A DNA stretch of 24,028 nt from a virus, in IMG/VR virus record IMGVR_UViG_3300032677_000160, positions 1-24,028 of that record; one strand, written 5' to 3'. The position numbers and the translations under genes are program-made. The notes beneath the pieces were generated by a model, which worked only from the letters and a program-made list of their open reading frames with translations, made no database searches and had not been told where the DNA came from. Below are positions 2 through 16,536 of this stretch, piece after piece. The number at the start of each line of letters is the position of its first letter. Position 1 is the stretch's first letter.

Positions 2-610
2 TCTTTAGGGACTAATTTTGCATATGGCCTAAAAGCGACGGGGGATATTTGGGGATGGGGATTAAATACTTTTGGTAATATCGGAAACAACACAACCAAT
101 TCCTATTCATCTCCTGTAAGTGTCGTGGGAAACCATTCTTTTATTCAGATTTCCGCAGGAAAAAGCAGCATTTTGGCATTGAAAGTAGATGGGTCTTGTT
201 GGTTTTGGGGGGATAATTCATTTGGATGCGCTGGTAATCAGACAAACAATACCAGTTATTCTTCGCCGATTAGCGTTGTAGGGGCTCATTCCTTTATTCA
301 GATAGCTAGCGGCGGGCATTCTTCTTGCTATGGTCTAAAAGCGACCGGAGATGTCTGGGCATGGGGAGATAATGCCTCGGGACAATTAGCGCAAAATAAT
401 ACAACGTCCTATTCCAGTCCTGTTAGCGTTATAGGAAACTTTAGTTTTGTAAAAATAGCAAGGAATGGTCAAGACGTGACAATCTCTTCAATGGGAGGAT
501 GGCTTTCGAATGGTCAATTATATGCATGGGGAGCAAACACCTATGGAGAATTGGGCAACAACACAATTACTAATTTTTCATCGCCAATTTTGATTTTAAA
601 CACTCCTTAA
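2..610 (+). CDS. RCC1-repeat tail-fibre-like protein, 5'-truncated by window edge
   Basis: The frame is open from the first base, so the N-terminus lies outside the window; the first ATG, at 125, is internal. The visible part holds four RCC1-type repeats of about 50 residues. Each has a W-G motif (GWG, FWG, AWG, AWG), a GNNTT-like turn and a YSSPxSVVG strand. It ends in SSPILILNTP, the same ending as the two downstream paralogues. Those have seven repeats, so this is probably the last four blades of a seven-bladed beta-propeller. The stop lies 7 bases before the next start, consistent with one operon. By analogy with the complete copies it is probably a receptor-binding or fibre protein. Family recognition is strong; virion location is inferred. 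Confidence 0.8.
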   Translation, partial: SLGTNFAYGLKATGDIWGWGLNTFGNIGNNTTNSYSSPVSVVGNHSFIQISAGKSSILALKVDGSCWFWGDNSFGCAGNQTNNTSYSSPISVVGAHSFIQIASGGHSSCYGLKATGDVWAWGDNASGQLAQNNTTSYSSPVSVIGNFSFVKIARNGQDVTISSMGGWLSNGQLYAWGANTYGELGNNTITNFSSPILILNTP

Positions 611-617
611 GGAAGTT

Positions 618-2195
618 ATGGCAGGATACAACAACTCAGCGAATTATCAGGTAAGCCAGTACAATTTGATTACTGGAGGAACCAATAATCTCCCGAATAA
701 TGTTGCTCCTGGAGTCAGCGGCACTCTACTTACATCAAATGGAGTGTCATCGCAATCGTCTTATCAATCATTTTCATCAGAAACATTTCCATGGTCTGTC
801 GTGAGTGGAACGAGTCAAACCTGTGTTATAAATAATGGGTATATCGCTTCCAATGCAGCCCAAGTAAATATGTATCTTCCCTCTACAGCAGCATTTGGGA
901 GCGAGGAAAAATTCACGAATATAAATGCTGGATTCAATGTCGTTCCAGCCCCAGGACAAACGGTAAGATTTCTAGCTCAATCAGCTACTTACCCAAGCTA
1001 TTTTCAAACCACGGTTGCCAATGCAGCCCTGGACATCATTTGTACCAACGCAAACACCTCATGGAATGTTGTTAATAACGAGGGGACATTTACGAATGGC
1101 GTGATTACTTCGGCTTTAAGTGCTTGTTTTACTGGAAATGACCTTCTCTATTTAAAAGCGGGCGGTCAATCTTGGGGAACAGGATTTAACGGATCAGGAG
1201 AGCTTGGAAATGATACTCGAACCGTTTATTCTTCTCCTATTTCAACAGTAGGTGGAAATAGTTACATTCAAATTTATTCAGCACAAAATGCCACATTAGC
1301 TCTTAGAATAGATGGTTCTTGCTGGTCTTGGGGAAATAACACTTCTGGACAGCTTGGAAATAATTCAACTACAAGCTATTCATCACCAATATCCGTAGTA
1401 GGAGCATTTTCTTTTATTAAAATTCAAATATCCGGACAAACCGTTACTCAGCTAGGTATGTCAGCAGGACTTCTTGCCACTGGAGCTGTTTGGATGTGGG
1501 GAGTGAATAATTATGGGAATTTAGGAAATGACACCTTAACAAACTATTCATCACCTATATCCGTTGTCGGTAATCATAGTTTTGTTCAAATTTCACTTGG
1601 TGCTTTGTCTTCTTATGGTTTAAAAGCAGACGGTTCTTGCTGGGCTTGGGGAGCAGGAGCAAATGGTGCTGTCGGTAACAACACCACCAACTCATATTCT
1701 TCTCCTATATCAGTCATTGGAGCGCATTCATTTATCCAAATCTCAGCCGGAAATCAATGTGCTTGCGGCCTAAAAATAGATGGTTCTTGCTGGTCTTGGG
1801 GATATAATTCACAGGGACAGCTTGGCACACAAAATGGGACGAGCTATTCAAGTCCCGTGTCTGTTGTGGGTGCTCATAGTTTTATTCAGCTTCAATCAGG
1901 AGGAACAGGTAGTTGTTATGGACTTAAGGCAAACGGCCAAATTTGGTGTTGGGGAAATAATTCTTCGGGTCAGCTAGCACAGCAAAATACAACAAATTAC
2001 TCGAGTCCTGTAAGCGTCGTTGGTGGGTTTAGTTTTGTAAATCTCGCAGCAAATGGAATAGATAATGAAACATCGTCTATGGGAGCTTGGATATCAAATG
2101 GACAACTTTGGGCCTGGGGATATAATTTTGGCGTATTAGGAAACAATTCAACAACGAACACTTCTTCTCCAGTTTTAGTCCTAAATACCCCTTAA
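618..2195 (+). CDS. RCC1-repeat tail-fibre-like protein, paralogue 2
   Basis: 525 residues. The start is well placed behind an AAGGAAG ribosome-binding site. Residues 1 to about 165 are non-repetitive: an N-terminal VSQYNLITGG-type segment, then a Gly/Asn/Thr-rich stretch with NNGYI and LPSTAAFG motifs. This style is common in phage fibre N-terminal and trimerisation modules. The remainder is seven RCC1-like repeats, counted by the WG motifs SWG, SWG, MWG, AWG, SWG, CWG and AWG and by YSSPxSVVG strands. Seven matches the blade number of a closed RCC1 propeller. The protein ends SSPVLVLNTP. There is no signal peptide or membrane segment. Its neighbours are paralogues on either side and a glycosyltransferase downstream. 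Receptor binding is the likely role. An RCC1-type exchange-factor or secreted-effector role is possible but less likely given the fibre-like N-terminus. Confidence 0.85.
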   Translation: MAGYNNSANYQVSQYNLITGGTNNLPNNVAPGVSGTLLTSNGVSSQSSYQSFSSETFPWSVVSGTSQTCVINNGYIASNAAQVNMYLPSTAAFGSEEKFTNINAGFNVVPAPGQTVRFLAQSATYPSYFQTTVANAALDIICTNANTSWNVVNNEGTFTNGVITSALSACFTGNDLLYLKAGGQSWGTGFNGSGELGNDTRTVYSSPISTVGGNSYIQIYSAQNATLALRIDGSCWSWGNNTSGQLGNNSTTSYSSPISVVGAFSFIKIQISGQTVTQLGMSAGLLATGAVWMWGVNNYGNLGNDTLTNYSSPISVVGNHSFVQISLGALSSYGLKADGSCWAWGAGANGAVGNNTTNSYSSPISVIGAHSFIQISAGNQCACGLKIDGSCWSWGYNSQGQLGTQNGTSYSSPVSVVGAHSFIQLQSGGTGSCYGLKANGQIWCWGNNSSGQLAQQNTTNYSSPVSVVGGFSFVNLAANGIDNETSSMGAWISNGQLWAWGYNFGVLGNNSTTNTSSPVLVLNTP

Positions 2196-2202
2196 GGAAA
2201 AT

Positions 2203-3786
2203 ATGGCTGGTTACAACAATGACCTCGATTATACTCTAAGTCAATATGCCATTCTCACAGGTGGTGCAAATAACACTCTAAATAATGTTCTCCCTGGAGT
2301 ATCAGGGACGGTCTTAACTTCTAATGGCGTGTCCGCTCAACCTTCTTTTCAATCTGCTCCATCAGGAAATTTTTCATGGAACTCAACCTCAGCAAGCAGC
2401 CAATCTTGTCTCGTGAACAATGGATATGCAACTACAGGTTCTTCTCAACAGAATATGTATTTACCCGGAACAGCAGCTATTGGGGGTGAGATCAAGCTTT
2501 CTAATATCGGATCTGGGTATGTAATACAGCCTCCCTATGGACAAACCGTAAATCTACTTTCTCAAACAGCCACCTATCCAAGCAATTTACAAACAACAAC
2601 AGCCAATGCGGCCGCAGATCTTGTCTGTACCAATGCGAATACTTCTTGGACTGTCGTCAATAATGAAGGAAGTTACACACAAGGGATTGTAACCTCTGCT
2701 CTTAGCGGGTCGTTTTCTTTCGCTGATTTTGTTTACATAAAAGCGAATGGAACCGCTTGGGGATGTGGACAAAACGCTCAAGGAGAATTGGGCAACCAGA
2801 CGGTCACTAGCTATTCATCTCCTATAGCTACCGTTGCTGGACAGAGTTACATCCAAATTTCTATTGCCAACAACACTACAATAGCACTTCGTGGGGACGG
2901 AACCGCATGGTCTTGGGGTTACAACGGTCAAGGACAAATCGGCAATAACTCCACAACATCTTACAGTAGCCCTGTAAGTGTCGTTGGTGGGTTTTCTTTC
3001 ATCCAGATTCAGACGGCTGGAAACGCAACCGTTCCTAATGGTTTTAGTGCGGGATTAACCTCTCTGGGAACCCTTTGGATGTGGGGAACAAATGGAGATG
3101 GGAATTTAGGCACACTGAACCACACGAGTTACAGCAGTCCGGTATCCGTCGTTGGTAATCATAGCTTTGTCCAGTTTTCTCTAGGCCCAACGTATGCTTA
3201 CGGCTTAAAAGCCACAGGTGATATTTGGTCATGGGGATTTAACTCAGCGGGACAACTGGGCACTCAGACCACTACATCTTATTCGAGTCCTGTGTCAGTT
3301 GTCGGGAATCATAGTTTTATCCAAGTAGCTGCTGGAAAAACATATTTTTTAGCTCTTAAAATTGACGGTTCTTGCTGGGGATGTGGTTTAAATAGTGCAG
3401 GACAAATCGGCACTCAATCAACGACTGCATCTTATTCCAGTCCTGTGAGCGTTGTCGGGGGTCACAGTTTCATTCAAATCGCTTGTGGAGGATTTGGAAC
3501 TTCATATGGCCTAAAAGCCAATGGCCAGATTTGGTCTTGGGGGATGAACCCTTCGGGACAAATCGGCAATAATACAACTACGAGTTACAGTAGTCCTGTA
3601 TCCGTAGTTGGGGGGTTCGCTTTTGCTAACCTAGTCACTTGTAGCCAAGATACCGAAGGACAGTCGATGGGAGCTTGGTTGACAAATGGTCAGATTTGGT
3701 CATGGGGACTCAACAATTACGGTCAACTTGGCAATAATACAACAACAAGCTATTCTTCCCCCGTTCTAATTCTCAATACACCATGA
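2203..3786 (+). CDS. RCC1-repeat tail-fibre-like protein, paralogue 3
   Basis: 527 residues, with the same architecture as the preceding gene. The N-terminal module begins MAGYNNDLDYTLSQY and is clearly related to MAGYNNSANYQVSQY. Seven RCC1-type blades follow, carrying GCG, SWG, MWG, SWG, GCG, SWG and SWG at the WG position; two blades have Cys in place of Trp. It ends SSPVLILNTP. The RBS is the same type as in paralogue 2 (TTAAGGAAAATATG). The gap to the upstream stop is 7 bases and the glycosyltransferase follows after 12 bases. Blade surfaces differ between paralogues while the YSSPxSVVG core strand is nearly invariant, as expected when binding surfaces diversify on a fixed scaffold. Placement as a fibre protein is inferred. 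Confidence 0.85.
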   Translation: MAGYNNDLDYTLSQYAILTGGANNTLNNVLPGVSGTVLTSNGVSAQPSFQSAPSGNFSWNSTSASSQSCLVNNGYATTGSSQQNMYLPGTAAIGGEIKLSNIGSGYVIQPPYGQTVNLLSQTATYPSNLQTTTANAAADLVCTNANTSWTVVNNEGSYTQGIVTSALSGSFSFADFVYIKANGTAWGCGQNAQGELGNQTVTSYSSPIATVAGQSYIQISIANNTTIALRGDGTAWSWGYNGQGQIGNNSTTSYSSPVSVVGGFSFIQIQTAGNATVPNGFSAGLTSLGTLWMWGTNGDGNLGTLNHTSYSSPVSVVGNHSFVQFSLGPTYAYGLKATGDIWSWGFNSAGQLGTQTTTSYSSPVSVVGNHSFIQVAAGKTYFLALKIDGSCWGCGLNSAGQIGTQSTTASYSSPVSVVGGHSFIQIACGGFGTSYGLKANGQIWSWGMNPSGQIGNNTTTSYSSPVSVVGGFAFANLVTCSQDTEGQSMGAWLTNGQIWSWGLNNYGQLGNNTTTSYSSPVLILNTP

Positions 3787-3798
3787 CCTGGAGATTTA

Positions 3799-5418
3799 AT
3801 GAAGCGAGCTGTTATAACTCTTGCCATAGGAGATCATTACCAAAAAATAGCCCTCATCACACACCCAACCATCAAACGATACGCTGATAAAATCGGAGCA
3901 GATTTCATCGTTATTTCTGAGAGAAAAATATCTCAGACAACGCCTCATTGGGAAAAGTTCCAGATCCTTGACTTCCTCAATAAATATGACAGGATTCTCT
4001 ATCTCGATACCGATATTCTTATCCGTAAAAATTGTCCCGATCTCTTTGATATTGTCCCTGAGGATGAATTAGGAATCTATAACGAGGCTTCTTTTGTCCC
4101 TTCTAGAGATTATGCAATAGTTCGTATAGCTGAACAATATGAGGTCAACGATTTTAAATGGGATGGCAAATACTATAACACAGGGGTGATGGTCATCTCT
4201 AAATGCCATCGGTCTCTATTCCGTAAGCCGGAGAAGGAAATCTTCAACTTCTACGAGCAATCCTTCATCAACATGCAGATCCAGAGACAGAAACCCAAGA
4301 TCCACGAACTTGACTACAAGTTCAATCGAATGACCTGTGTTGACAAAGTGATCGGGAGGAATCGTTTCGAGAGCTATGTCATCCACTACGCCGGCGTGAA
4401 TTTCGCTTCTAATGGCTTTGGAATCGTCTTAAGCGACTTCAGACATATCGAAACCCTCCCCGATGATTATGTCGCGCCAAAACACATCTGGCTCGTTGTA
4501 CAGGGCGGCATGGGGGATCAAGTACAAGCGGAGCCTACTATACGATTTGCCCTAAATTCAGTATGGAAAGGAGCGGATATAAGAGTCTCAACGCATTTCC
4601 CCGAGTTCTTTACTCATCTCCCTATTGTCTGCAAACGTCATGAAGAGAAGATCTGGGACATCGATACAGAGCCGTTCACTCGTAATACTCTTCCCGGCCC
4701 AGAAACCGTCCAATGGCGCATCGTCTCTAATCTCATGTGCCACACGGTCGATTATATCAGCATGGCGGTGCTCTGCCGCACCCTCCCTGACATCGACAAG
4801 TCTTATCAGATTCCCGTGAATGAAGATGCCGTGAGAAGAGTGAGGGAATTCATGGGGATAAATGATGTAAGTGATTGTGTATTAGTACATTGTGGTCGGC
4901 ATTGGCAGTCGAAATCATTTCCAGCACCTTGGTGGCAAGAAGTCGTAGATGGGATTGTTAATCTTGGGCTAACCCCAGTGTTAATCGGGAAAGACGATTC
5001 TACGAGGGGAGTTGTTAAAGTTGACGGACGAGGCAAGTCAATCGATCTTACCAATCTTCTTACTCTCGAGGAGTTTATCGCTATCGTTTCCCTTGTCCCC
5101 ATTCTTATCTCAAACGACAGCTCTCCGATCCATATTGCTGGAGCATTTGATAATTGGATCGTGCTAATTCCAACCTGTAAACACCCAGATCATATCCTTC
5201 CTTATCGCAAAGGATCTAAGAACTACAAAGCATCGGCTCTCTATAAGCGTCTAGCCCTAGACGATATGATGACCTCTGTAGCTGAAATGATGGGATCTAC
5301 GGCTGATAAGATCCCTGGAGATTGGTCTAACTATTTGACAGATCCTAAAGTAGTTGTCCAAAAGATCAATGAGATCTCACTTCATATCTCCAAATCCTTT
5401 AGGGAGGAGAACGTCTGA
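3799..5418 (+). CDS. Two-domain glycosyltransferase, GT8-like plus GT9-like
   Basis: 539 residues, start behind TGGAGA. Residues 1 to about 205 resemble GT8/glycogenin-type enzymes: a DxD metal and sugar-nucleotide motif in LYLDTD (70-72), YYNTGVMVIS (125-134), LDYKFNRM and VIHYAG (194-199). Residues from about 229 resemble GT9 (heptosyltransferase) proteins: GGMGDQVQAEPTIR near 237-250 corresponds to the GGxGDxxxAxPxLR loop; VLVHCGRHWQSKSF and NDSSPIHIAGAFDN correspond to the HxG...K and DSG-MH-A-A motifs. It may therefore add two sugars in succession to a lipopolysaccharide-like or protein acceptor. It directly follows the fibre genes, so virion-protein glycosylation or receptor masking are both plausible. 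The donor and acceptor cannot be read from the sequence. The last 42 bases overlap a minus-strand gene. Confidence 0.85.
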   Translation: MKRAVITLAIGDHYQKIALITHPTIKRYADKIGADFIVISERKISQTTPHWEKFQILDFLNKYDRILYLDTDILIRKNCPDLFDIVPEDELGIYNEASFVPSRDYAIVRIAEQYEVNDFKWDGKYYNTGVMVISKCHRSLFRKPEKEIFNFYEQSFINMQIQRQKPKIHELDYKFNRMTCVDKVIGRNRFESYVIHYAGVNFASNGFGIVLSDFRHIETLPDDYVAPKHIWLVVQGGMGDQVQAEPTIRFALNSVWKGADIRVSTHFPEFFTHLPIVCKRHEEKIWDIDTEPFTRNTLPGPETVQWRIVSNLMCHTVDYISMAVLCRTLPDIDKSYQIPVNEDAVRRVREFMGINDVSDCVLVHCGRHWQSKSFPAPWWQEVVDGIVNLGLTPVLIGKDDSTRGVVKVDGRGKSIDLTNLLTLEEFIAIVSLVPILISNDSSPIHIAGAFDNWIVLIPTCKHPDHILPYRKGSKNYKASALYKRLALDDMMTSVAEMMGSTADKIPGDWSNYLTDPKVVVQKINEISLHISKSFREENV

Positions 5419-5748
5419 TAGGGAGCATTTAGATTCAGAACTGGTTTCTTTTTTAGGCTCATCAGAATCATGATTTACAGAGATATTTTTTTTCCTAGAT
5501 TCGGAAATAATCTTGTCAACCACTATTCTGTCCACCTTTCTGATCTCTAGCCAATCCCTGACACAAGCGATCAACTCTCCATGCTGGTCATAAAAGCTTA
5601 CAACCTTCCCCTCAAACTCAGCTTCAAGGCGAAATTCAAATGCCTTGATGAAGGTGGTGTTCAGATCTGCAATTGCCTGTTTGACCATGTAATAGCGGTT
5701 TTCTTCTTCTGGAGTTTCTTCAATCTTTTTCTTCATTATTTTTGCCAT
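5377..5748 (-). CDS. Hypothetical charged protein downstream of HTH regulator
   Basis: 123 residues, unrecognised. It has a basic N-terminus (MAKIMKKKIEETPEEE), a central segment with alternating acidic and aromatic residues (about 25-80), and a low-complexity Lys/Ser/Glu tail. A weak RBS (AAAGGAT) precedes ATG 5748. The start lies inside the preceding HTH gene (29-base overlap), so the two are probably translated from one minus-strand transcript. The 3' end overlaps the glycosyltransferase gene by 42 bases, tail to tail. There are no membrane segments. Function unknown. Confidence 0.6.
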   Translation of the reverse strand: MAKIMKKKIEETPEEENRYYMVKQAIADLNTTFIKAFEFRLEAEFEGKVVSFYDQHGELIACVRDWLEIRKVDRIVVDKIISESRKKNISVNHDSDEPKKETSSESKCSLSDVLLPKGFGDMK

Positions 5749-5932
5749 GATCTTTATCCTTTAATATTGTTACCTTTCCCAATGTGACTTGCTTGATCCT
5801 AGCCATTATCCATTTGGACGGCTTTTTGTCTCCCCTTAGCCAGGAATGAATATAACTCCTGTCTACCTTCAACAAGGCAGAGAAGCTGCTAACGGAGATG
5901 AGTGTCTTATTTAACCATTCTCTCAAAGTCAT
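5720..5932 (-). CDS. Small helix-turn-helix regulator (Cro/CI-like)
   Basis: 70 residues. Residues about 10-48 read as a compact HTH: LISVSSFSALLKVDRSYIHSWLRGDKKPSKW, where SFSALLKVD and RSYIHSWLRGDKKPS fit the turn-and-recognition-helix pattern of XRE/Cro proteins. The tail is Lys/Asp-rich and lacks an obvious oligomerisation domain. It is divergently transcribed from the recombination genes and sits beside overlapping back-to-back promoter motifs, the usual place for a repressor controlling its own and the opposite promoter. An AGGA sequence 10 bases before the ATG is a weak RBS. The specific regulator type is not recognised. Confidence 0.7.
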   Translation of the reverse strand: MTLREWLNKTLISVSSFSALLKVDRSYIHSWLRGDKKPSKWIMARIKQVTLGKVTILKDKDHGKNNEEKD

Positions 5933-6162: not shown

Positions 6163-6929
6163 ACCAAATGAACTTTTTACCCACAGATTATGAAGCACCA
6201 AAAACAAACTCCAAATACATGAAATTCGAGGACGGGTCTAACAAATTCCGTATCCTCTCTTCTCCAATCATAGGATGGGAAGACTGGGAGAATAAAAAGC
6301 CTATCAGATTCAAACTCAACTTTAAGCCTGAGAAGCCTGTAGACCCTGAAAAGCCTATCAGACATTTCTGGGCTTTCATTGTATGGAATTACTCTTCCCA
6401 GCGTATAGAGATCTTAGAGATCACCCAAGCCACTATCCGTAAAAAGATTGAGGCTCTCTCCAAGGACTCTGACTGGGGATCCCCCTACAACTATGACATC
6501 AAGGTCTCCAAGTCTGGACAGCGTGTAGATACCGAGTATGAGGTCAACCCCTCTCCCAAGACTCCCATAGATCCTAAGATCAAAGATGCCTTCATAGCTC
6601 TCCCCATAGATCTAGACGAGATGTTCAAGGGAGGAGATCCCTTTGCAGCCGCCCCACTCTACCGTACCAAAGCCTTCTGGGAGAAGGATGAGGTAATGGG
6701 CGAACCCATCATCCAGGATGATCTTATCACCAAGGCCCAGCAAACAGACATCGAGAGGAGTATCGACACCTACATCCATCCCCATGCACCATCATGGAAA
6801 GAGGCTGCCTTCAAAGCCTTCAAGATCACCAACTTCAGCCAGCTCAAGAAACAGCACTATGATCTGGTGATGAAGAGGATAGAGGAGAAGAAGCAGCAGA
6901 TAAAGACCGACGACGAGGTTCCGTTTTGA
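6156..6929 (+). CDS. Phage single-stranded DNA-binding protein
   Basis: 257 residues. The N-terminal KYMKFEDGSNKFRILSSP pattern and the following HFWAFIVWNYSSQRIEILEIT segment (about 70-92) match what I know of phage ssDNA-binding proteins with an OB-fold, found beside recombinases. The C-terminus is acidic and ends DDEVPF, strongly resembling the DDDIPF-type tip of bacterial SSB that recruits replication and repair partners. The ATG at 6156 overlaps the upstream stop; no Shine-Dalgarno is visible, so coupling is likely. An alternative Met is at 6168. It leads a replication/recombination run with an HNH nuclease and a YqaJ exonuclease. Role: coating ssDNA during replication and exonuclease-driven annealing. 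Confidence 0.75.
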   Translation: MVNQMNFLPTDYEAPKTNSKYMKFEDGSNKFRILSSPIIGWEDWENKKPIRFKLNFKPEKPVDPEKPIRHFWAFIVWNYSSQRIEILEITQATIRKKIEALSKDSDWGSPYNYDIKVSKSGQRVDTEYEVNPSPKTPIDPKIKDAFIALPIDLDEMFKGGDPFAAAPLYRTKAFWEKDEVMGEPIIQDDLITKAQQTDIERSIDTYIHPHAPSWKEAAFKAFKITNFSQLKKQHYDLVMKRIEEKKQQIKTDDEVPF

Positions 6930-7285
6930 AATATAGACTTGTTACTGATGGCCATCTCTTTGCAATTCAGAAGGGATGGCTGTTTAAGTTTTATTATGGA
7001 TTATATCCAGATATTGGTTTTTGGTGGCCATACAGACATAGTCGATCATTGGGTTCTATTTGTTGGGGGCCAGAGTATTTGGGTAGAAAATTAAGCGAAT
7101 TTGAGGCCGTTCATCATAAAAATGGGGACAAGTTGGACAATCGAATTGAGAACCTTGAACTATGGACAAGAGACCACCCAACAGGAAGTCGCGTTGAGGA
7201 TAAAATTACATGGTGCGTGGAATTTCTAAAACAATATCCTCAACAGGCGAAAGAAGCATTCAAAATCTTAATGGGAATTAGGTAA
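6926..7285 (+). CDS. HNH endonuclease (homing-type), TTG start
   Basis: 119 residues. The core is [21 protein letters not shown] (about 60-80), with the H-H, N and N-x-x-N-L-x-L-W signature of HNH nucleases. A C-terminal helical extension (VEFLKQYPQQAKEAFKIL) follows. There is no in-frame ATG near the beginning. TTG at 6926 overlaps the upstream TGA stop (TTTTGA) with GAGG about 9 bases upstream, so a TTG start is inferred. It is wedged with no spacing between the SSB and exonuclease genes, as is common for selfish HNH genes. A related truncated copy lies at 16339-16536. Confidence 0.8.
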   Translation: MKYRLVTDGHLFAIQKGWLFKFYYGLYPDIGFWWPYRHSRSLGSICWGPEYLGRKLSEFEAVHHKNGDKLDNRIENLELWTRDHPTGSRVEDKITWCVEFLKQYPQQAKEAFKILMGIR

Positions 7286-9117: not shown

Positions 9118-9390
9118 ATGTTCTACAGAAATAAAAAATCCCTCAGACAAAGATTTCCTCATCGCAAAAGAAGAATGGACTGGTGTCCAGGATGCCACAA
9201 ACATTTCTGCAACTGCTTTGTTCTAGTCATCTTCAAAGATGTTGTGGAGTGTAGATATTGCGGACTGATCTGGGTTCTGGAAAGCCTGGATGAATTTTAT
9301 CGTTGGTATGGATATACGAGTTGTGGTAAAGATTTTAGTTGTTTTGAAAAAGAGGAGAACAGCAGCCATGAAAGAATGTTTAACACTTAG
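9118..9390 (+). CDS. Small zinc-finger-like protein
   Basis: 90 residues from ATG 9118. That start has an excellent AAAGGAG RBS at 9102-9108, better than the upstream in-frame ATG at 9076. A strongly basic N-terminus (NKKSLRQRFPHRKRR) is followed by Cys at 23, 26, 31, 33, 45 and 48 (WCPGC, FCNC, CRYC), consistent with a zinc ribbon. The C-terminal part is aromatic and acidic. The gene overlaps the Euo-like gene by 23 bases, so the two are likely co-translated. Zinc ribbons of this size often bind nucleic acid or transcription proteins. Specific function is not recognised. Confidence 0.65.
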   Translation: MFYRNKKSLRQRFPHRKRRMDWCPGCHKHFCNCFVLVIFKDVVECRYCGLIWVLESLDEFYRWYGYTSCGKDFSCFEKEENSSHERMFNT

Positions 9391-9775
9391 ACAGGTATCA
9401 GAATTACATGGGGTTACGTATCAATCGATATTTTTGTCAATGAAGAAGGGGAAATTAAAGGCCCACAAAGAGGGGCTTAGATGGATGGTGGATGTTAACG
9501 ATTACAGAACCTTCAAAGAGTTGAGATATTCCCGATCTCTTTCTAGAGACCCAGAGGGAAACCTAATCTACTCTCCTGAAGAAGGAAGATACTCTCCAGT
9601 CCAGATAGCCTCCATCTTGGAAACACCAGATCAGAATATTTACTATCAGATCAGGACGGGTAGACTGAAGTGTAAACGGATAGGTGGAGTAATCGTTATC
9701 CACAAAAATGACTTTCAAGAATTCCTAGACAAATACAAACCTTTCTCAGGGAGAGTGCAGATTTCTGGGGATTAA
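9368..9775 (+). CDS. Euo-like double helix-turn-helix transcription regulator
   Basis: 135 residues from ATG 9368, preceded by GAGGAG; a longer in-frame start at 9290 lies in the upstream gene and has no RBS. There are two excisionase/MerR-type winged HTH domains. Domain 1 (about 4-50) is LTLRQVSELHGVTYQSIF then KKGKLKAHKEGLRWMVDVND. The linker (51-74) is ELRYSRSLS...GNLIYSPEEG. Domain 2 (75-124) is RYSPVQIASIL, then PDQNIYYQIRTGRLK and VIVIHKNDF. From memory of chlamydial Euo, the same order and signature words recur: LHxVTxQxI, KLKAxK, RYSR, GxYSxxQxAS, QxIYYxxRxG and VIH. Euo is the early repressor of late developmental genes in Chlamydiota. A phage copy could hold the host in the replicative stage or control phage genes. 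Family match is strong; role is inferred. Confidence 0.8.
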   Translation: MKECLTLRQVSELHGVTYQSIFLSMKKGKLKAHKEGLRWMVDVNDYRTFKELRYSRSLSRDPEGNLIYSPEEGRYSPVQIASILETPDQNIYYQIRTGRLKCKRIGGVIVIHKNDFQEFLDKYKPFSGRVQISGD

Positions 9776-9869: not shown

Positions 9870-10018
9870 GGAGAGCTTCCACATGGAGAACTTCCACATG
9901 ATGGAGAACTTCCACATGTCACGAATTCTACAGAAAGACGGGATTAACTGTCTACTGAATGAATTTTTAGTACATGTGAAAGTTCTCCTTGTCAACCCGA
10001 AAAGGAGAATTTCTCATG
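9870..10018 (+). repeat. Iteron cluster, putative replication origin
   Basis: A 16-base element GGAGAACTTCCACATG occurs at 9885-9900 and 9903-9918, with a one-mismatch copy at 9870-9885 and an inverted one-mismatch copy at 9973-9988 (CATGTGAAAGTTCTCC). A degenerate fifth copy (GGAGAATTTCTCATG, 10004-10018) covers the RBS and start codon of the initiator gene. Direct repeats directly upstream of a replication initiator are the hallmark of iteron origins. A perfect DnaA-box match TTATCCACA lies at 9696-9704 inside the upstream gene. The 240-base gap 9776-10015 also holds a TATAAC motif (9778-9783) and a stem-loop, and no convincing gene. Confidence 0.65.
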
Positions 10019-10849
10019 GTATTCAAGAGCTTACACCACAGTTTTGACATAGATCTTGCAGCTGAGTATGGAGTTGAAGAAGCCATCCTCATTCATCATT
10101 TCCAGCATTGGATATCTCTGAACCGGAAACGGAAGAAAAACTTCCATGAAGGAAGAACCTGGTCTTACCAGACTATCCAAGAAATAGCTGATCATTTTCC
10201 GTATTGGACTTTGGATGAGGTTAGAAATCTAATAGAAAGACTTTGCGGAGGACATTGCAGGTTTTCAAAAAGCAAGAAAAAAGACTTCCACCCCGTTCTA
10301 AAAAAGGGAAATTTCAATAAAAGGAAAATGGACAAGACCTCTTGGTATGCATTTACTGACGAGGAGAAATTCCTCAATTCAAAAAATGTTTACGAAAGGT
10401 TGCACAACCAAATGCATAAGGGTGGACAACCAAAGCAATACCAGATACTAAATACAGATAAAGTTCCTCCTCTTACTCCTCCTCATCCCAAGAAGAGAGA
10501 GACTTACTCAGAAGAGGAGGAACTTTTTTTCAAAGAAAAAATGAAAAAATGGGATCATGAAGGAAATCCTGTCAAAAGCGAGGAGGGTCTTAAGAAACAT
10601 CTGATAGGAAAGTTTAGGAAAGTAAAGGCAGGAAAAAATGCTGTTATCGAGAATGAAAAACTAATAGAAAAGAACATATCCATAGGAAAAGAAATCTACA
10701 AACACATGATAAAAGACCCTTCCAAATGGAGGGTGATACCACATTTTGATGAGCTTACTGGAATATTCCTCATGGGAAGCTTGTATATAATGCCAAACCA
10801 GTCTACACTTTCTTATGAAGAAGAAATCCACAAATGGAGAAAACCTTGA
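10016..10849 (+). CDS. Replication initiator / replisome organiser protein
   Basis: 277 residues from ATG 10016, which has AAAGGAG 8 bases upstream; the ATG at 9989 lacks an RBS. Residues about 6-85 (FDIDLAAEYGVEEAILIHHF, then FHEGRTWSYQTIQEIADHFP and LDEVRNLIERL) match the winged-helix N-terminal module of phage replication initiators. That module typically reads FxxDLAxxYGVEEAI...W.Y.S...FP.W....IR..L. The middle is Lys-rich with a Pro-rich hinge, and the C-terminus is helical. Iterons lie just upstream and the DnaB helicase just downstream (16-base overlap), so it probably binds the origin and loads the helicase. A degenerate iteron over its own RBS suggests autoregulation. Confidence 0.75.
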   Translation: MVFKSLHHSFDIDLAAEYGVEEAILIHHFQHWISLNRKRKKNFHEGRTWSYQTIQEIADHFPYWTLDEVRNLIERLCGGHCRFSKSKKKDFHPVLKKGNFNKRKMDKTSWYAFTDEEKFLNSKNVYERLHNQMHKGGQPKQYQILNTDKVPPLTPPHPKKRETYSEEEELFFKEKMKKWDHEGNPVKSEEGLKKHLIGKFRKVKAGKNAVIENEKLIEKNISIGKEIYKHMIKDPSKWRVIPHFDELTGIFLMGSLYIMPNQSTLSYEEEIHKWRKP

Positions 10850-12189
10850 TAGACGAATCTATATCTATCCACTCTGAAAACCAAGCAGAGATGTCTCTCT
10901 TGGGAGGTTGTTTACAATCTATCAACTGGGTGAACCAGTCTATAGCTTCCCTTTTGGAATCCGATTTCTTTTCCCAAGAAAACCGTCATATCTTCGCCAC
11001 AATCAAAGATCTCTACTCAAAAGACTCCCAAGTCACTTTTCAAGCGATAGAGGCTAGAATGGACCTTAAAACGTGTTCTTTAGACCATCTAGTGGATTGC
11101 CTGTCTCTTGGAAACCTAGCTTATGACATGCAGGATCTTATTGAAGACATCAAGGAAGCCTCCAAGAAACGCAATCTTCAACGTATTGGTTATGACTTCC
11201 TTAAGGATACTTCATCCCCAACCCGTTCTTCCAAAGAGATTCTTCAGTCTCTTGAGGAACAGATATTTTCAGCTTCTGAAGGAATACAACCTCAGATTCT
11301 TAAGCCAATAAAAGACGTTCTCGACAAGCCCATTCCTTTCCTCCAGGAAATCCAGAACCGTCAGGAACTCCATGCTCAAGGCATATCTGCCTTCAAGGGT
11401 ATCCCAACTGGATTCTATGACCTTGATAAATCACTTAAAGGATTGATCTCAGGACACGTAACGATTATTGGAGCCCGTCCAGGTGTTGGTAAAACAACTC
11501 TTGCTCTTAACATCCTGGAGAATCTCGTTACCAAATACCGATCCCCTGTCATGTTCTTCTCCCTCGAAATGCCAGCTACCGAGGTTGCCAACAAGCTAAT
11601 CTGTCAAAGAGCACAGGTGTCAATGCAAAAACTATCAGATGGTTCTCTCAATGGTGAAGAATTTCAAAGGATCAACGTAGCATACCATGCACTCAAGGAA
11701 CAGATCATCATCATAGATGACCAGCCCTCCATCTTGATCGATCAATTTAAGGCTCGTTGCATACGTTCTAAACGCATTTATGGCATCAAGGCTGTCTTTA
11801 TCGATTACGTTCAGCTTATGCGCTCAAATCGCAAAGGAACAGACCAGCGCCATCTTGAAATCGGGGACATCTCTCGTCGTCTCAAAGAGACGGCTAAAGA
11901 ATTAGAGATCCCCATTATAGCTTTGGCGCAGCTCAATCGCGAAGTGGATAAGCGCACGGACAAGAGGCCATACCTCTCTGATCTACGGGAATCGGGATCT
12001 CTGGAGGCAGATGCTGACGAAATACTTCTGCTTCATCGTCCAGATATGCTAGATCCATACGATCAGCCTGGAGTGATCCATCTTCACATTGCAAAGAATA
12101 GATTTGGGCCTACAGGCATCATTAAGTTAGCTTTTAGTAAGGAAACGGGATGTATTAATAACTATGCGCCATTCACACAGCCAGGATAG
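10834..12189 (+). CDS. dnaB: Replicative DNA helicase, DnaB family
   Basis: 451 residues, the usual DnaB length. The N-terminal helical domain (17-110) includes AEMSLLGGCL and ENRHIFATIKDLY. The RecA-like domain carries Walker A GARPGVGKT (213-221), SLEMP (243-247), Walker B VFIDYVQLM (321-329), IALAQLNREVDKR (sensor) and SDLRESGSLEADADEILLLHR. It unwinds the phage replication fork 5' to 3'. Start overlaps the initiator gene by 16 bases, so both are expressed as one unit. No key residue appears to be missing. Chlamydial plasmids also carry DnaB-type helicases, but this gene looks phage-organised. Confidence 0.95.
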   Translation: MEKTLIDESISIHSENQAEMSLLGGCLQSINWVNQSIASLLESDFFSQENRHIFATIKDLYSKDSQVTFQAIEARMDLKTCSLDHLVDCLSLGNLAYDMQDLIEDIKEASKKRNLQRIGYDFLKDTSSPTRSSKEILQSLEEQIFSASEGIQPQILKPIKDVLDKPIPFLQEIQNRQELHAQGISAFKGIPTGFYDLDKSLKGLISGHVTIIGARPGVGKTTLALNILENLVTKYRSPVMFFSLEMPATEVANKLICQRAQVSMQKLSDGSLNGEEFQRINVAYHALKEQIIIIDDQPSILIDQFKARCIRSKRIYGIKAVFIDYVQLMRSNRKGTDQRHLEIGDISRRLKETAKELEIPIIALAQLNREVDKRTDKRPYLSDLRESGSLEADADEILLLHRPDMLDPYDQPGVIHLHIAKNRFGPTGIIKLAFSKETGCINNYAPFTQPG

Positions 12190-12605: not shown

Positions 12606-12788
12606 CTATTCCTTATTCCACTCTGGCTCTACAAGGATGTATTTGATCCCATCAGAGCAATAGAACCTTACCAGAACCTCATATCGTTCGTCTACCCATG
12701 TGTAGATCTGCTCAGGATCAGAGCTTTGGAAGCTCATGGAAAAGATCTCGTTCATCTTGCAGGTGTCTTCGTAGTGATAGTCGGTCAT
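12606..12788 (-). CDS. Hypothetical small protein, coupled to DUF551-like gene
   Basis: 60 residues from the ATG at 12786-12788, which overlaps the upstream TGA (ATGA) and has GGAG 8 bases upstream. A longer frame to 12863 exists but overlaps the DUF551-like gene for 79 bases without an RBS. The product is acidic: MTDYHYEDTCKMNEIFSMSF, then IYTWVDERYEVLVRFYCSDG and KYILVEPEW. No known domain. It probably forms a coupled pair with the preceding gene. Confidence 0.6.
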   Translation of the reverse strand: MTDYHYEDTCKMNEIFSMSFQSSDPEQIYTWVDERYEVLVRFYCSDGIKYILVEPEWNKE

Positions 12789-12982
12789 TTCGGAGGCTCC
12801 GGTAATGGCATCCAGTGTGTCGGCTTTTCTGGTTCTCTTCCGCAACAATGTCCTGAATTCCATTTATCAATGTATCCAGGTTGGTATTGAACATTTATCC
12901 TTTCATAAATAGCAGTAACCATCCACCCATCTTTATCGACCATAAGAACCCAGGTGTTGCTTTCTGGCAACATGATCCACAT
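12785..12982 (-). CDS. DUF551-like small phage protein
   Basis: 65 residues. The pattern W-I-x-LPES-x-x-VLMVDKDGWMVTAIYE at the N-terminus and the C-terminal THWMPLPEPPK are typical of DUF551, a common small phage and prophage protein family whose usual ending is HWMPLPEPP. ATG 12982 is the first available start and has no clear RBS. It lies inside a 29-codon reading frame in another register that starts at the stop of the upstream membrane-protein gene, so translational re-initiation is possible. Function of the family is unknown to me. Confidence 0.65.
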   Translation of the reverse strand: MWIMLPESNTWVLMVDKDGWMVTAIYERINVQYQPGYIDKWNSGHCCGREPEKPTHWMPLPEPPK

Positions 12983-13022
12983 TAATATATGAACCAGACG
13001 TGTTTCTTATGAATTTTGACAT
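12933..13022 (-). CDS. Possible 29-residue leader-type peptide
   Basis: ATG 13020-13022 directly abuts the TAA of the upstream membrane-protein gene. The frame reads MSKFIRNTSGSYINVDHVAR then KQHLGSYGR and stops at 12933. It overlaps the DUF551-like gene in another frame. The FIRNTSGSYINVDH segment looks protein-like, so this may be a remnant of a separate small gene or a coupling peptide carrying ribosomes to the DUF551 start. Confidence 0.35.
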   Translation of the reverse strand: MSKFIRNTSGSYINVDHVARKQHLGSYGR

Positions 13023-13184
13023 TTAATCCCCCATCAACATCATAAAGAATATCAAGGCTAACAGAGCTGCGGCTGTTAGGATTCCTAACATATATTGTCC
13101 GATGGTCTTCCATCGTTCTTTGCTTTTATCAGACATTATCATTTGCCGTAGGCGGCTTTTTGTGTCATCTAGATCGTTGTCCAT
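13023..13184 (-). CDS. Small single-span membrane protein
   Basis: 53 residues with a perfect AAGGAGG RBS 5-6 bases before the ATG. The N-terminal half is charged (MDNDLDDTKSRLRQMIMSDK). The C-terminal half is one hydrophobic span (MLGILTAAALLALIFFMMLM), ending MGD. It is the first gene of the minus-strand accessory operon (membrane protein, DUF551-like, small protein, lipoprotein). Its RBS immediately follows a terminator-like hairpin. Holin-like or immunity functions are conceivable, but no family is recognised. Confidence 0.7.
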   Translation of the reverse strand: MDNDLDDTKSRLRQMIMSDKSKERWKTIGQYMLGILTAAALLALIFFMMLMGD

Positions 13185-16338: not shown

Positions 16339-16536
16339 CTGGGTTACAACGTTCACCATAAAAATGGAATTCGTCATGATAATAGGATTGAAAACTTGGA
16401 ACTTTGGCATAAGTCACAACCTCCTGGACAAAGAATAAGTGATAAGATTAAATGGGCTAAAGAGTTCTTAACAGCGTATGGGTACGAAATATCTGATCCA
16501 AAGGGAATAGATGGGAAGTTATCAAAACAGTTATGA
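16339..16536 (+). pseudogene. HNH endonuclease remnant between terminase and portal
   Basis: This frame is open after a stop at 16336-16338 and has no start codon before the conserved core. It reads [19 protein letters not shown], then [14 protein letters not shown], and stops at 16536, 26 bases into the portal gene. The intact HNH gene at 6926 has [19 protein letters not shown] followed by DKITWCVEFLKQY, so the two are clearly homologous. The N-terminal half is missing. This explains the 177-base gap and suggests a decayed homing endonuclease at the terminase-portal junction. Confidence 0.8.

Follow-up and report, generated by a model that had tools for sequence, protein, structure and literature searches.

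A stretch of 24 kb from a virus record (the window, 24,028 nucleotides; the record is incomplete) carries a gene for a 135-residue protein with two tandem wHTH domains, the layout of the chlamydial regulator Euo. Euo is the early upstream ORF protein, which keeps chlamydiae in the growing stage. The protein belongs to a family of seven viral members encoded in early regions, with no integrase in the records tested, and repeats and dyads lie beside its gene. We think it somewhat probable that, taken as a whole, these features describe an early or replication regulator of a phage that shares a common ancestor with Euo. The protein would then be a phage-encoded DNA-binding protein of the early and replication region, built from two excisionase-type wHTHs and a short conserved linker, as reported for Euo. 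It would most likely bind repeated sites in the phage DNA and switch the transcription of, or origin access to, the adjoining replication module. The tandem-wHTH ancestor would probably be one that it shares with Euo.

All of the sequence words that had drawn attention to this protein in an earlier note (HGVTYQSI, KLKAHK, RYSR, RYSPVQIAS, QNIYYQIRTG and VIHKND) are present in the open reading frame (Table 1). The two tandem HTH domains claimed there were confirmed as an excisionase-type wHTH pair, both by Pfam, where HTH_17 matched in two stretches (E 6.4e-11), and by the structure prediction that the note had proposed. AlphaFold2, given a six-row alignment of natural family members, returned two consecutive wHTH units at a mean pLDDT of 81.6, while prediction from the single sequence with no alignment gave an unusable model (pLDDT 39.9). 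The first unit consists of helices at residues 7-14 and 18-26, strands at 33-35 and 38-42 and a helix at 43-53; the second repeats this order with helices at 77-84 and 88-96, strands at 103-105 and 108-112 and a helix at 113-123.

Table 1. Features of the regulator gene and its surroundings in the window
Feature	Position	Strand	Basis or remark
Small Xre-like regulator gene of the same module, divergent to the gene for the ssDNA-binding protein	5720..5932	-	PHROG 35, E 4.8e-5
Small CxxC zinc-ribbon-like protein gene, upstream neighbour	9118..9390	+	conserved in G001, G003, G005
Tandem-wHTH (Euo-like) regulator gene	9368..9775	+	135 aa, ATG start; ORF and homologues with the same start position
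First wHTH domain, residues 3-56	9374..9535	+	AlphaFold2 model; BldC and Xis matched by residues 1-56 in VIA-align
Linker following RYSR (residues 57-74), containing G64 and Y68	9536..9589	+	six-row and seven-row alignments
Second wHTH domain, residues 75-124	9590..9739	+	best Pfam HTH_17 stretch 75-123; AlphaFold2 model
Repeat copy 1, GGAGAGCTTCCACATG	9870..9885	+	repeat search
Repeat copy 2, GGAGAACTTCCACATG	9885..9900	+	repeat search
Repeat copy 3, GGAGAACTTCCACATG	9903..9918	+	repeat search
Inverted repeat copy 4, one mismatch; long hairpin with copies 1-3	9973..9988	-	repeat and fold analysis
Replication initiation protein / DnaD-like helicase loader gene, 3' of the repeats	10017..10849	+	PHROG 11233, E 1.4e-25
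DnaB-like replicative helicase gene	10834..12189	+	PHROG 19, E 4.6e-86

Most PHROGs and NCBIfam matches of the protein were to excisionase-type families and to other DNA-binding families of a generic kind, and the six-member alignment compared with the profile libraries likewise matched only generic excisionase/HTH_17 families. No Euo model was among the Pfam, PHROGs and NCBIfam matches of the regulator, which were to generic excisionase/HTH_17 families only. A sequence search of the PDB gave no convincing match. By VIA-align, the best single-domain matches of the first unit were BldC (Z 8.6) and Pukovnik Xis (Z 8.4). BldC of Streptomyces binds direct repeats head to tail and holds back development; it differs from the phage protein in having one domain and in belonging to the Actinobacteria. 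The best full-length match by Foldseek was TraN of Enterococcus, a DNA-binding protein of type IV secretion that also has two wHTH units (E 0.0036 over 132 columns, with 13% identity). TraN acts in a conjugation context, whereas none was seen here, and a TraN-like conjugation protein was rejected: the gene is surrounded by phage genes for recombination, replication and packaging instead of type IV secretion genes or oriT. A MerR regulator was also rejected: after its wHTH it would have a dimerising coiled coil and an effector domain, where the predicted model has a linker, a second wHTH and a short tail.

Full-length relatives were found on six other viral contigs, G001, G003, G005, G032, G033 and L158 (the first five at loci P0002, L006, L094, L096 and L097, respectively), by scans of viral contigs and by profile searches of loci fetched via the terminase and single-strand-binding protein. 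Because of these relatives, the open reading frame is a real gene and more than a product of chance. Pairwise identity within the family is about 22-39%, and ten columns of the six-row alignment are invariant; these include two in the linker region (R56 and G64) and Y92 in the second recognition helix. Two further candidates were discarded: the match in L003 was a short stretch within an unrelated open reading frame, and L100 reached just E 0.058 with the family profile. Chlamydial plasmids contained no relative, and tblastn of phages and plasmids gave weak matches only. A scan of genome contigs with the phage family found no match, nor did the Waddlia plasmid primase match there.

In all seven members the gene lies in the early region, close to an Xre-like repressor gene and to a gene for replication or recombination. 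The window, G001, G003 and G005 share an early module of exo, ssb, a small Xre-like gene, a zinc-ribbon gene, the tandem-wHTH gene and a replication gene, in which the regulator sits after the zinc-ribbon gene and before the replication gene; the Xre-like gene of the window is conserved in these three relatives. In the window, the 3' end of the zinc-ribbon gene overlaps the start of the regulator, so that the two may be translationally coupled. In L158 and G032, the tandem-wHTH gene instead directly follows and overlaps the Xre-like gene. By its position the gene corresponds to a lambdoid-style early regulator, not to a recombination factor. G001 and G005 resemble the window phage closely in their genes for packaging (terminase, 87 and 76% identity) and for the capsid (83-92%), while identity drops to just 33-63% in early genes, including the regulator.

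The gap between regulator and replication gene is occupied by a cluster of GGAGAACTTCCACATG, the sole repeat cluster adjoining the regulator. With up to three mismatches allowed, the window holds four copies where 0.34 are expected, all of them within 9870-9988. The repeats and dyads of this gap were matched in 0 of 100 shuffles for the window, 0 of 100 for G001 and 1 of 100 for G005, and the gap folds far more stably than its shuffles in the window (z -5.4) and in G001 (z -7.6). The gap dyads of G001 and G005 differ in sequence from those of the window and from each other. Regulators and sites that diverge together would fit operators; an origin recognized by the replication protein fits the repeats too, and they could belong to that protein. 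No significant dyad was found in the xre|ssb gaps, that of L158 among them, and none of the kind lies beside the tandem-wHTH gene of G032. The earlier note had proposed that the phage uses Euo sites in its own promoters, and the DNA lends this no support: a scan of the window for the Waddlia-type Euo box (TTAAAAACAAATTTT) gave two matches against 2.4 expected, with no enrichment, and the neighboring repeats have a different sequence. Given that these repeats do not resemble the Euo box, the targets of the regulator probably differ from those of Euo.

Two other roles within the phage have to be weighed here. One is that of an excisionase (recombination directionality factor), to which the closest described folds and the PHROG names point: TorI, Tn916 Xis and Pukovnik Xis share the wHTH fold with each of the two domains. 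However, Pukovnik Xis is a single domain in a 54-residue chain, while this protein has two in tandem, and neither PF00589 (tyrosine integrase) nor PF00239 (resolvase) was found in the six gene-carrying records searched (G000, G001, G003, G005, G032 and G033, four of them 36-39 kb; the window record is incomplete). Because no recombinase accompanies the gene in these records, the excisionase role was rejected as very improbable despite the excisionase-type fold, and the protein is probably a regulator of transcription or replication. The other role is that of a replication-origin factor, which would bind the repeats or the hairpin and aid helicase loading and would not act on transcription. Its appeal lies in the place of the repeats and long hairpins, directly before the replication initiation and DnaB genes, and in the replication gene that is also found downstream in G001, G003 and G005. 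Yet the gene follows the Xre-like regulator in L158 and G032 with no adjoining replication gene, dyads of this sort were found neither beside the gene in G032 nor in the xre|ssb gap of L158, and the replication protein is an equally good candidate for binding the repeats, all of which leads us to consider an origin factor unlikely.

The comparison with Euo itself concerns layout, key residues and short peptides. In Waddlia Euo, tandem TorI/Xis-like wHTHs lie at residues 6-62 and 78-137, and mutating Y31, R47 and Y100 together impairs DNA binding (PMC4989314). This published layout is matched by the predicted units at residues 3-56 and 75-124 of the phage protein, with similar size and spacing. 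The columns aligned to the three key residues hold F22, R38 and Y92 in the window, spaced by 16 and 70; thus R38 and Y92 agree with Euo, while the window has phenylalanine for the first key tyrosine, which is Y in the other five rows of the six-row alignment. The spacing from first to second key residue is 16 in five of the six rows, as in Waddlia Euo, and that from first to third is 68, 69, 69, 70, 72 and 76, compared with 69 in Waddlia Euo.

Published primers and a TaqMan probe for C. trachomatis euo (PMC2835644, PMC5727650, PMC6360031, PMC11323709, PMC10734534) translate to VTRQAIYVA, SVGQVAS and KGERRG. Our comparison with Euo uses the published layout and residue spacing and these oligo-derived peptides. 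When VTRQAIYVA was run against the 20,800 open reading frames of all fetched loci, the first four ranks were taken by family members (G001, L158, G003 and G033), whose segments read VTRQSVYVA, LTRQAVYIA, ISRAAVYIA and INPQAVYVA. The window copy, VTYQSIFLS, differs from the recognition helix of Euo at several positions and came 30th with a score of 22, while one generic phage HTH protein scored 24. When all three peptides had to be matched in their order among the same 20,800, the family took ranks 1, 3, 4, 6, 7, 24 and 66. Furthermore, the best registers on a seven-member profile fall at homologous places, V16 for VTRQAIYVA, S76 for SVGQVAS and K101 for KGERRG, which correspond to helix 2 of domain 1, helix 1 of domain 2 and the wing of domain 2. 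Singly, the two second-domain peptides were not significant (p 0.12 and 0.19), and such single-oligo values are only rough, since an oligo used as control, which lies upstream of the domain, gave p 0.007 in a wrong frame.

The claim that the protein is a Euo homologue, made in the earlier note, is supported by the spacing and by the peptide matches in several family members, but the window copy matches less well and the profile libraries return generic families only. The tie of the window protein to Euo appears to run mainly through its better-matching relatives. On these comparisons the likeness of the phage family to Euo is supported, not proven, and we regard a common origin of the tandem protein and Euo as likely. 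Differences accompany the likeness: the regulator is encoded by a phage, in an early/replication module, and its nearby repeats are not like the Euo box.

The likeness could also be that of any HTH_17 pair, carried by a generic excisionase-type protein whose wHTH was duplicated independently. The purely generic results from Pfam, PHROGs and NCBIfam would agree with this, and any HTH_17 domain would be expected to carry its two key residues 16 positions apart. Additionally, TraN is a tandem wHTH protein found elsewhere, and for that reason the tandem layout alone is not diagnostic of Euo. Against an independent duplication, the Euo recognition-helix peptide scores 38, 37, 29 and 28 in the family and 8-24 in generic HTH_17-like open reading frames, of which the comparison set, poor in such proteins, holds five; the inter-domain distance and the order of the three peptides also fit Euo. 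We consider this generic origin doubtful. If instead the likeness to Euo is taken at its fullest, the protein might be directed at the host, binding chlamydial late promoters and holding the host replicating while the phage multiplies. However, the recognition helix of the window copy departs from that of Euo, the gene is embedded in the regulatory module of the phage with its own repeats, and similarity searches with terminase, portal, capsid and tail proteins gave matches to phages of mixed hosts, or no match. A host-directed factor is therefore an improbable reading, and the chlamydial host and delayed differentiation put forward in the earlier note are possible but unsupported by the sequences compared.

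Several other features of these phages were recorded. Positions 125-3786 of the window encode three consecutive RCC1-repeat proteins, 50-67% alike and with a tail-fibre-like N-terminus, the first of them truncated at the window start; RCC1 is best known from eukaryotic proteins. Adjoining these genes, a 539-residue protein (3799-5418) matches glycosyltransferase families GT8 and GT9 and possibly modifies receptor or host surface sugars. A further stretch (16351-16479), between the terminase and portal genes, shares 63% identity with the HNH endonuclease at 6926-7285. Contig 3300031759_001713 (L123) comes from the same virus: it is 99.98% identical to the window across 7,961 bases and extends about 20 kb past the window's left end. 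In G005 (L014 16685-16921) and G003 (L011 3259-3996), the major capsid gene is broken at one shared codon region by 0.2-0.7 kb of sequence that has stops in every frame; the interruptions look like group I-type introns, and Rfam gave no match above cut-off for them. Upstream of the G005 capsid gene, L014 15584-15645 matches the Rfam int-alpA RNA (42.6 bits; gathering 35.8). In sister phages without the tandem-wHTH gene, a resolvase-type serine recombinase is encoded instead (G008 12725-13126 and G015 29244-29645).

A published reconstruction places Euo in the last common ancestor of the chlamydiae and regards it as a putative gene invention of that group (PMC9816063). Our literature search found no paper joining Euo to a phage homologue; Euo is known as a chlamydial regulator, and what is new is a phage family of Euo-like layout. 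Its novelty would be raised by kinship confirmed in a tree with full Euo sequences, which would give a supposed chlamydial invention relatives in a tailed phage known from metagenomes only. More tentatively, Euo may descend from, or share its tandem-wHTH ancestor with, an early regulator of tailed phages that infect Chlamydiota, with cross-talk possible at promoters between the phage copies and the master regulator of the host. If these phages do infect chlamydiae, they would be tailed phages with a relative of the developmental master regulator of their host. If the kinship is true, the phage relatives would supply Euo with an outgroup and with an origin outside the chlamydiae, and would serve as simple in vitro models of DNA recognition by Euo.
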